Source of the DNA: an uncultured Prochlorococcus sp. | GTDB taxonomy: Bacteria; Cyanobacteriota; Cyanobacteriia; PCC-6307; Cyanobiaceae | Assembly (NCBI GenBank): GCA_902596585.1 | Contig: CACJUL010000004.1 | Location: forward strand, 1-64,000 | Length of the DNA: 64,000 nucleotides | Direction: 5' to 3' | Notes under the pieces: generated by a model | The model's input: only the letters and a program-made list of their open reading frames with translations | What the model was told of the DNA's origin: nothing | Database searches by the model: none | Program-made: the position numbers and the translations under genes | Shown here: in pieces, positions 21,371 through 57,419 of the stretch | How the letters are laid out: each line of letters opens with the position of its first letter | How positions within the stretch are numbered: position 1 is the first letter of the stretch

Positions 21371-21390
21371 TTTTATGCAAAATACTTAGT

Positions 21391-22173
21391 TTACATTCCA
21401 TTAATGCAGTAACCCGCATCAACATAAATTGTTTGGCCTGAAATACCGCTAGAGAGATCACTTAATAAAAAAGCAGCTGTATTACCTACTTCTTTTTGAG
21501 TGACTGTTCTGCGTAAAGGAGCCTTTTCTTCAACATTGTGAATCATATCTAAAATGCCACCTATAGCAGAACTCGCAAGTGTTCTTATAGGCCCAGCACT
21601 TATTGCGTTAACTCTGACTTGTTTTTCGGGACCAAGTTCTGCAGAAAGATATCTTACTGAAGCTTCTAACGCTGCTTTAGCAACTCCCATCACGTTATAG
21701 TTAGGAATCGCCCTTTCTGAACCTAAATAGGTTAATGAGACAACTCCAGCACCATCACTAAAAAGTGGTTTTGCTGCTTTACATAAAGGTGCTAACGAAT
21801 ACGCACTTATATTAAGAGCCCTATCAAAACCCTCTGAAGTGGTAGCACTATAATCTCCAATCAATTCATCGCGTCCTGCAAATGCTAGGCAGTGAACTAA
21901 TCCGTCAATTTGCCCCCAATTGTCTTTTATATTTTTAAATATTTCTTCAATTTGAGCTGGATTTTGAACATCAAGTGGCAAAAATAAAGATGGGTTTAAA
22001 GGTTCAGTTAGTTCTCTAACTTTAGACTCGAATCTTCCCTTATCATCAGGCAAATATGTGATTCCAAGTTCTGCGCCAGCTTTTGAAAGTTGTTGAGCGA
22101 TTCCCCATGCTATTGAACGATTGTTGGCAATTCCCGTAACAAGAATTTTTTTGCCAGTTAGATTTAGAAGCAT
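21391..22173 (-). CDS. fabI: Enoyl-ACP reductase (NADH)
   Basis: 260 aa; GKKILVTGIANNRSIAWGIA, YNVMGVAKAALEASVRYLSAELG, GQTIYVDAGYCINGM. Confidence 0.96.
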   Translation of the reverse strand: MLLNLTGKKILVTGIANNRSIAWGIAQQLSKAGAELGITYLPDDKGRFESKVRELTEPLNPSLFLPLDVQNPAQIEEIFKNIKDNWGQIDGLVHCLAFAGRDELIGDYSATTSEGFDRALNISAYSLAPLCKAAKPLFSDGAGVVSLTYLGSERAIPNYNVMGVAKAALEASVRYLSAELGPEKQVRVNAISAGPIRTLASSAIGGILDMIHNVEEKAPLRRTVTQKEVGNTAAFLLSDLSSGISGQTIYVDAGYCINGM

Positions 22174-37101: not shown

Positions 37102-39273
37102 ATGACTTTTAATCATCTGGTATTAATTGGAGGAGGACACACAAATGTCCTTCTATTGAAGAAATGGTTAATGTCTCCGAATTTAATGCCAGAAATTCCT
37201 GTTTCAATTATATCTAGAGATTCTCATTTGGTTTATTCGGCGATATTCCCATCAGTAATTTCAAAATCAATCACTTTAGAAGATTGTTTAATTGATATAA
37301 AATCTTTAGCAAAAAATGCAAAAGTATCTTTCATAGAAGAGGAAGTAAAGGATATTGATTTTAATTTAAAGAAAATTGTTTTAAGTAATAGACCTTCAGT
37401 TAATTATTCGAAGTTGGTGCTTAATTATGGAAGTCAAACAATAATTCCAAAAGAATTTGAATCACTAGTTAAAAATCAAAATGCTTTTACAATTAAACCT
37501 TTTTTAAGGGCTTATGACTCAATACTAAAAGAGGACATTTTTGATTCAGTTAATGAACTTCCATTTGTAATTGTTGGAAGTGGCTTAGCTGCAATTGAAG
37601 TATCATATGCTTTGAGAAAAAGATGGGGAGATAGACCTTTAAAACTATTATGTGATTCAAGAAAAATTAATAATACAATTCTAAAAAGTTTAAGGAATTC
37701 CAATATTGATTTAGTTGAAAAACTTAATTTTGATTATGGCAAGATTCTTTTATGTACTGGAAATACATCTCCGTTATGGGCACAAAAAAAATTATTAGAT
37801 TCGGATACTCATGGCAGAATAATCACAAATCAGAATTTGCAGATAAAAAGTTTCTCTGGAATCTTTGCTGTCGGCGATTGCGCAGTTGTAGGTGCAGCAA
37901 AAAGACCAGCATCTGGAGTTTTTGCTGTAAAAGTAGTAAATACATTAGTCCAAAATCTAAACAAAGATATAGAAGGGAGACCATTAAAAAAGTGGTTTCC
38001 TCAAAAGATCGGATTGCAAATAGTAAATATATTTCCAAGCCATCATCCAAAGGCTTTTGCTATTTATCGCAATTTTGTTTTCGGCCCCTCTTTTATTTTT
38101 TGGATTTTAAAGCATAAAATTGATCTCAACTTTATTAAAAAGTTCAGATCAAAAAGGCTAATTATGAAAAGTAGTGAAAAAAATATCTCATTGAATGATT
38201 GCAGAGGATGTGCAGCTAAAATTCCTCAATTAGTTTTGAATAAATCATTAATAAATTCTAATTTAAATTCTTTTGCCTCATCACCCGAAGATTCAGTTGA
38301 GATATATCAAAATGGTCAAGATATTATCTTGCAAAGTGTAGATGGATTTCCTGCTTTGGTAAGTGATCCTTGGCTTAATGCAAAAATTACTACTTTGCAT
38401 GCTTGCTCAGATTTATGGGCATGCGGAGCCAAACTTTCATCTGCGCAGGCTTTAATTTCATTACCAAAAGTTGAAAGGGAATTTCAGAGTTACCTCTTTT
38501 CTCAATCACTTCAAGGTATTAAATCAACAGTTGAGAATCATGGAGGTGAATTACTTGGAGGCCATACTTTCGAGGCAAGAAGTTTAATAAATAAACCCTA
38601 TTCATTAGGAATAGATATTTCTTTAACAGTTCAAGGTATTTTAAAAAATGGAGCAAAACCATGGCTTAAATCTGGAATGAATGATGGGGATATCTTAATG
38701 ATGTCTAGACCTCTAGGAGTTGGAATCTATTTTGCCGGTCAAATGCAAAATATTAATATGCTAGGTAGTTCTTCTGCAATAATGAATAATTTAGTAAAGA
38801 GTCAGCAATATTTGATTGATCAAATTTATCTTTTTCAAAATCAATTTAAAGAATCATTAGTCAATGCTGCGACTGACATTACTGGATATGGATTTATTGG
38901 GCATCTTAAAGAAATGGTTGAATCATCCAATTTATATAGGCAAAGCAATAATCTTGAGCCACTTAAAGTTTTATTAGATTTATTTGCATTTAAAGCTTAT
39001 CCTGGAGTATTTGATTTAATAAGAAAAGATGTTAAAAGTACTTTCTTTGAATCTAATCAAGAAATTTTTGACAAAATTTATAAATTAAATAAGCAAAAAA
39101 GAATAATTAATTTTTTAAACGAAAATTCATTAGATCAAGAGACTTTTAAAGAGAGAATACCATTACTATTAGATCCTCAAACATGTGGACCCTTGTTGAT
39201 TAGTTGCAATCGCAAATATGAAAATGTTCTAAAGGATAAATGGTACAAGGTTGGAGAAGTTGTAAAAATGTAA
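37102..39273 (+). CDS. selD: Fusion protein: N-terminal FAD/NAD(P) oxidoreductase (NDH-2-like) + C-terminal selenophosphate synthetase (SelD)
   Basis: 723 aa; LVLIGGGHTNVLLLKKW and FAVGDCAVVGAAKRPASGVFAV in N-half; DCRGCAAKIPQLVLNKSL, ATDITGYGFIGHLKEM, LLLDPQTCGPLLIS in C-half. Confidence 0.9.
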   Translation: MTFNHLVLIGGGHTNVLLLKKWLMSPNLMPEIPVSIISRDSHLVYSAIFPSVISKSITLEDCLIDIKSLAKNAKVSFIEEEVKDIDFNLKKIVLSNRPSVNYSKLVLNYGSQTIIPKEFESLVKNQNAFTIKPFLRAYDSILKEDIFDSVNELPFVIVGSGLAAIEVSYALRKRWGDRPLKLLCDSRKINNTILKSLRNSNIDLVEKLNFDYGKILLCTGNTSPLWAQKKLLDSDTHGRIITNQNLQIKSFSGIFAVGDCAVVGAAKRPASGVFAVKVVNTLVQNLNKDIEGRPLKKWFPQKIGLQIVNIFPSHHPKAFAIYRNFVFGPSFIFWILKHKIDLNFIKKFRSKRLIMKSSEKNISLNDCRGCAAKIPQLVLNKSLINSNLNSFASSPEDSVEIYQNGQDIILQSVDGFPALVSDPWLNAKITTLHACSDLWACGAKLSSAQALISLPKVEREFQSYLFSQSLQGIKSTVENHGGELLGGHTFEARSLINKPYSLGIDISLTVQGILKNGAKPWLKSGMNDGDILMMSRPLGVGIYFAGQMQNINMLGSSSAIMNNLVKSQQYLIDQIYLFQNQFKESLVNAATDITGYGFIGHLKEMVESSNLYRQSNNLEPLKVLLDLFAFKAYPGVFDLIRKDVKSTFFESNQEIFDKIYKLNKQKRIINFLNENSLDQETFKERIPLLLDPQTCGPLLISCNRKYENVLKDKWYKVGEVVKM

Positions 39274-55491: not shown

Positions 55492-55827
55492 TTACTTTTT
55501 GATATCTTTGTCAGTTTTGCTAATTTGATCGTTTTTTTTAAACTTTATTTCTCCAGAAAGAGTTCTTTTGATTGGTAAATTGGCAACTAATGCTGTCATC
55601 CTGTCTTCAGTTTCTAAACTTACTGCCACCTCCTCAAAATCAATCTCAACATATTTAGCAACAACATCAAGAATTTCTTTCCTCATTTTATCCAAAAGAT
55701 CAGTTGTTAATGAACTCATATCAACTCTGTCATGAGCAAGAACAAGTTGAAGTCTTTCTCTAGCAGTATTTGCGCTAGCAGTTTCTCTGCCTAGTAATTT
55801 GTTTATAAGATCTCTGAGGGTCATCAT
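55492..55827 (-). CDS. minE: Cell division topological specificity factor MinE
   Basis: 111 aa; [33 protein letters not shown]. Confidence 0.95.
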
Positions 55828-55828
55828 T

Positions 55829-56643
55829 TTAAAAAACCTTTGTTTGCATCAATCTCATGAACTTATCTTTAAGGCTTTTACCTTCATTTTTAGGGTCAAT
55901 AATAGGCACATCATCACCTCTAAGTCTTTGAGATACATTTAAATAACATTTTTTGCTGGTGAACTACTTTCGGTAAGAGTTAGAGGCTCACCTCTATTAG
56001 TACTTATTATTACTTGTTCATCTTCTAAAACAATTCCTAACAAAGGTAAAGAAAGTATTCCTTGAACATCCTCAATTGATAGCATTTCTTGACTTGCCAT
56101 CATGTTAGGACGAACTCTATTTATTACAAGTTGAATAGGCTCAATATCAGATGTATTAAGAATTCCTATTACTCTATCGGCGTCACGTACTGCCGATAAT
56201 TCAGGGTTGGTAACAACGATAGCTTCCTTACATGCCGCAAGAGCATTTTTAAAACCATCTTCTACTCCTGCAGGACAATCTACTAAAACATAATCAAATT
56301 TTTCACTAAGAAGCTCACTAATTCTTTTCATATCTTCTGGCTTCATCCAATCCAACATTCTAGGATCTCCGGCAGGTAAGAGAGCAAGATTAGGCTCTTT
56401 TTTATGTCTGACTAACGCTTGTTCTAGGCGACAATTTTCATCAAGAACGTCTTGAGCGGTATAAATAATACGATTTTCCAATCCTAGAAGAAGATCTAAA
56501 TTTCTCAGGCCGAAATCGGCATCTAAGACAGCAGTGGTCGCTCCACTGTTGGCAAGTGCTATGCCTAAATTTGCAGTTAAAGTAGTTTTACCAACTCCTC
56601 CTTTCCCTGAACAAATTAGGATTGTGCGAGTACTTTCCGCCAC
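55829..56643 (-). CDS. minD: Septum site-determining ATPase MinD, interrupted by an apparent -1 frameshift at 55948-55954 (conceptual 271 aa; uninterrupted ORF 55939-56643 is 234 aa)
   Basis: [37 protein letters not shown]; shifted frame reads [39 protein letters not shown] then TAA at 55829-55831, next to the minE ATG. Confidence 0.88.
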
Positions 56644-56762: not shown

Positions 56763-57419
56763 TTAAGTTTTTATTATGTAAGGCTTGATATTTATTGTTT
56801 GTTTATCGACTAAAGCAATTTCAGGATAATGATTTTTGGGCTTATCCTTTGGACCGATAGCTATTACATCGGCAATTCTTAACTGTAAGGGGTTTAAATA
56901 AAGAGATGAAATTGAGGCATTTTTATTCCCATCCTTGCCTGCGAAGGCGATTCCAAGTAGTTTCCCCCAGACGTAAATATTATTCTTAGCGGAAACTATC
57001 GCCCCTGGATTTACGTCTCCAACAATGCAGAGGTTACCATTTGAAAATATTCTTTCTCCTGATCTAACGGTCCCTTCGTGAAAAATATCATCTTTCTTTT
57101 GCGAATCGATTAGAAGTAACTCATCCTTAATAGCTTGTTCTTTGAAGAAAGTTGAGTCTATTTTTAAAGATTTTCCTGCCAATATTGTGTCTCTGTTATT
57201 TGAGCAAATTGATAAAGAATGAATGTTCAGGTCGTCAAAATTATTTTTGAATTTCGATAATTGATGAGAACTGATTGACTCATTGATTGAGAATATTTTT
57301 GCCTCCAAAGGGACTTTCATCGAGGAAAATTGTTTGAAAATTTCATAGATATCGTCAAGATTTTTAAAAGATATAGTTTCTAGATATTCATTATCAGTAG
57401 TAGTTATAAAAATTTTCAT
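56763..57419 (-). CDS. minC: Septum site-determining protein MinC
   Basis: 218 aa; RSGERIFSNGNLCIVGDVNPGAIVSAKNNIYVWGKLLGIAFAGKDGNKNA; upstream of minD. Confidence 0.93.
   Translation of the reverse strand: MKIFITTTDNEYLETISFKNLDDIYEIFKQFSSMKVPLEAKIFSINESISSHQLSKFKNNFDDLNIHSLSICSNNRDTILAGKSLKIDSTFFKEQAIKDELLLIDSQKKDDIFHEGTVRSGERIFSNGNLCIVGDVNPGAIVSAKNNIYVWGKLLGIAFAGKDGNKNASISSLYLNPLQLRIADVIAIGPKDKPKNHYPEIALVDKQTINIKPYIIKT

Follow-up and report, generated by a model that had tools for sequence, protein, structure and literature searches.

A private one-base deletion in the A7 run of minD in a draft Prochlorococcus genome is most likely technical and not a recoding signal

We analyzed a window of 64,000 nucleotides, bases 1–64000 of a 70,027-base contig belonging to a draft Prochlorococcus assembly (54 contigs totalling 1.166 Mb, with a completeness of 72%). 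The assembly looks like a single amplified genome, as most of the named relatives are single-cell genomes. The division gene minD sits between minC and minE, all three on the minus strand (Table 1). Its reading frame starts with GTG at 56643 and ends shortly past a run of six A, seen as T6 on the plus strand, with the residues S P A K N V I and a stop (CCA GCA AAA AAT GTT ATT TAA). The −1 frame past the run encodes the rest of the protein, with its stop at 55831–55829 and the ATG of minE at 55827. An earlier note on this DNA had described minD as broken at the A6 run, with the conserved C terminus in the −1 frame next to minE, and both the coordinates and the reading were confirmed.

Table 1. 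Features of the min locus in the window
Feature	Position	Strand	Description and evidence
minE	55492..55827	−	Intact, 111 aa; TIGR01215, E 1e-25
Conserved MinD C terminus	55829..55948	−	39 codons and stop, membrane-targeting helix; −1 frame; sequence comparison
A6 run	55949..55954	−	Site of the 1-nt deletion, A7 in most relatives; sequence, comparison with relatives
minD zero-frame ORF	55939..56643	−	234 aa, cut off past the A6 run; NCBIfam TIGR01968, E 8e-97
minC	56763..57419	−	Intact, 218 aa; NCBIfam MinC models

The zero-frame product retains the ATPase domain, scoring 323.6 bits against a TIGR01968 family cut-off of 212.9, and its profile match ends at position 227 of 261. The C-terminal membrane-targeting helix, which in Escherichia coli covers MinD residues 256–270 (PMC6803595), is encoded in the −1 frame, and the 234-aa product, having no C terminus that matches the E. 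coli helix, would be expected to have lost membrane binding. The locus agrees with other minC-minD-minE clusters in MinD sequence, gene order, and encoded C-terminal helix, but differs from them in the absence of one A, which shifts the final 39 codons of minD into another frame. The junction had been read in the earlier note as a slippery heptamer of the form X_XXY_YYZ, and the zero-frame A_AAA_AAT does have that form; a ribosomal −1 slip on it would, however, yield AKN-CYL, whereas one A added in the DNA or mRNA would yield AKK-CYL. The relatives encode AKK-CYL, the form expected from one extra A.

At the DNA level, 224 of the 266 genomes of the genus matched the minD stretch, and 192 of the 266 contained the in-frame pattern CCNGCNAARAARTGYTAYYTNAA. 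The A6 form was present in four genomes, and it lay inside minD in only two of them, this draft and the single-cell genome of Prochlorococcus sp. AG-355-A09 (G157; contig QCDG01000013.1, 39,164 bases). The other two matches to the A6 pattern (G213:C11 and G223:C4) were rejected as broken minD genes, as neither locus gave a MinD match. The frame break was not conserved: among the 146 distinct Prochlorococcus minD sequences, 144 were unbroken 271-codon ORFs, and the two broken ones were those of this draft and AG-355-A09. Nor was the slip sequence conserved beyond codon usage in the 144 intact genes. The site reads GCA AAA AAA (A7) in 121 of them, the remaining 23 having the run broken up by GCT, GCC, GCG, AAG, or AGA codons, and the codon entropy at A230 and K231–232 falls within the range shown by A and K codons elsewhere in minD. 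The A7 run is thus not kept as a slip site, since codon changes interrupt it in those 23 genes.

In AG-355-A09, the same one-nucleotide loss is found in the A run of minD at 38685–37874 on the minus strand of its contig, in a different lineage. Over the first 231 codons of minD, that genome differs from its closest intact relatives at ~19 codons, while ~75 codons separate the gene of this draft from its own closest relatives. The two A6 genomes thus represent different lineages and not sisters with one shared deletion, and the losses are independent and recent because the nearest relatives of both genomes are intact. The out-of-frame tail in the window carries two to five nonsynonymous differences from its nearest relatives, a number usual for intact pairs of that divergence, and the break is therefore either recent or not real. 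The tail of AG-355-A09 shows three nonsynonymous changes against its near relatives; only 2.5% of comparably diverged intact pairs show this, a weak sign that constraint may be relaxed in that genome.

We computed the background rate of frame breaks by comparing 68 reference genes of the region with 125 sequences, comprising this contig, the AG-355-A09 contig, the three regions used as reference, and 120 further genus stretches, none longer than 20 kb. The survey covered 2,360 gene instances (~2,240 in the denominator outside minD) and gave six clear breaks outside minD, all in drafts and distributed over five genomes, corresponding to a private frameshift rate of ~0.27% per gene instance. The same sequences contained 4,873 sense-strand runs of at least six A. 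With two to four of the breaks located in such tracts, 0.09 to 0.18 further cases would be expected at one site in 224 genomes; one further case of A loss was seen at the minD site, an outcome with a probability of ~0.09 to 0.17. This probability counts only the second case, AG-355-A09, because the window itself was chosen for its break. The minD site may thus be a mild hot spot or a place where the loss of an A is tolerated. On the contig itself, minD was the only clear frameshift among the ~70–77 genes compared with three relatives; its frame break is therefore not chance, and the comparison gave no sign of generally poor quality of this contig.

The deletion is seen directly, is nearly absent from the relatives, and affects an A run that is not conserved as a slip site; its most likely origin is technical, in amplification, sequencing, or assembly (probability about 0.65). 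The normal gene carries an A7 run (GCA AAA AAA TGT) within one continuous 271-codon frame. The draft lacks one of these A, so that its final 39 minD codons are displaced from that frame; most likely the A was lost by slippage when the whole genome of a single cell was amplified, sequenced, or assembled. Private frameshifts in other genes of draft genomes support such an origin, and a benchmark of a Prochlorococcus single-cell workflow gave 3.0 indels per 100 kbp (PMC6122165; also PMC8443664), or about two on this contig, although this rate is an upper guide as our survey shows far fewer coding breaks. The minD case resembles the indels of single amplified genome assemblies (PMC6122165) in being a one-nucleotide homopolymer loss private to one assembly, a likeness drawn here from the assembled sequence. 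Counting against a technical origin are the status of minD as the sole clear frameshift on a 70-kb contig of an assembly that is not generally bad, and the loss of the same A in a second genome, against an expectation of about 0.1 to 0.2 such cases from the background rate in A tracts.

These two observations speak for a genuine, recent, and private one-nucleotide deletion in this cell, which we consider possible but clearly less probable than a technical loss. MinD would then stop at 234 aa, lacking its final segment and the membrane-targeting helix, and would probably not bind the membrane. Runs of seven A are hot spots of replication slippage, the identical deletion arose independently in AG-355-A09, and the weak hint of relaxed constraint on the tail of that genome points in the same direction. 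On the other hand, the tail in the window shows no such relaxation, large marine populations would be expected to lose a core division function only rarely, and the error rate of single-cell assemblies alone suffices to account for the break (PMC6122165).

The earlier note had offered a sequence or assembly error, a natural one-nucleotide deletion, and functional slippage as causes; the first two fit the data, but the third is not supported and we regard it as very unlikely. It would require either ribosomal −1 slippage on A_AAA_AAT or insertion of an A by RNA polymerase, giving full-length MinD alongside a soluble 234-aa form. The heptamer, the still normal constraint on the tail, and the commonness of the A7 run in the genus agree with such slippage, and sporadic bypass of frameshifts over homonucleotide repeats is known (PMC3812077). 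The relatives had been proposed in the earlier note as a check, A7 throughout the close relatives speaking against programmed frameshifting, and A7 does predominate: MinD occupies a single frame in nearly all relatives, and other codons interrupt the run in part of the intact genes. The motif itself is unremarkable in this AT-rich window, which contains 158 copies of AAAAAAT against 130 ± 10 in shuffled sequences. We also looked for the stimulatory stem-loop or upstream Shine–Dalgarno sequence that had been suggested, and found neither at a suitable place. The 80 nt 3′ of the heptamer have an ordinary predicted fold (−12.8 kcal/mol, z −1.4), whose first stem lies ~24 nt away, giving no stimulatory structure at the right spacing, and the downstream fold of the relatives has a mean z of +0.7 (60 nt, mononucleotide shuffle). 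Visual inspection of the 20 nt preceding the heptamer showed no Shine–Dalgarno-like or GGAG-like motif. Selection against A/T runs is evident in many bacterial genomes only from nine nucleotides (PMC1088944), and the run here, with six A, lies below that onset. The locus shares with dnaX-type −1 programmed frameshifting and transcriptional slippage an A-rich slippery heptamer followed by a −1 ORF, but here the site is not conserved, stimulators were not found, and the full-length MinD of the relatives is the single-frame form. Programmed frameshifting is thus unsupported by the conservation of the break, the conservation of the run, the downstream folding, and the motif frequency. Still more improbable is a contingency-like slippage spot at which the membrane anchor would be lost and regained by one-nucleotide changes, slippage providing some full-length protein in the meantime.

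If real, the deletion would represent a natural MinD without a membrane anchor in a free-living cyanobacterium; the titles among the matches listed suggested no earlier report of such a MinD frameshift in Prochlorococcus, in a search that also caught the plain word "mind". Considered as a probable technical loss, the case advises caution, in that A-run frameshifts in single AT-rich marine draft genomes need to be checked against relatives before recoding is claimed.

The frame comparisons also produced some minor observations. At 21372–21461 of the window, a 231-aa ORF of one relative (G006) matches in two frames, and likewise in AG-355-A09; the break is absent in comparison with two other relatives (G019 or G020), and the start of the G006 ORF is possibly over-long or shifted. 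In the survey, one 20-kb stretch (L185, G056:C5) contained two separate private frame breaks, in the homologues of g54868 and g58840, which suggests lower consensus quality of that stretch; these are two of the six breaks outside minD. Nineteen apparent breaks in g64271, a gene of the reference G019, were rejected as artifacts, because its ORF start is predicted too far upstream in that reference and a T run precedes what is probably the true ATG. This T run, whose length varies among the genus genomes, lies just upstream of the probable ATG (ATGGCGAATTC), and automatic surveys give false breaks there.
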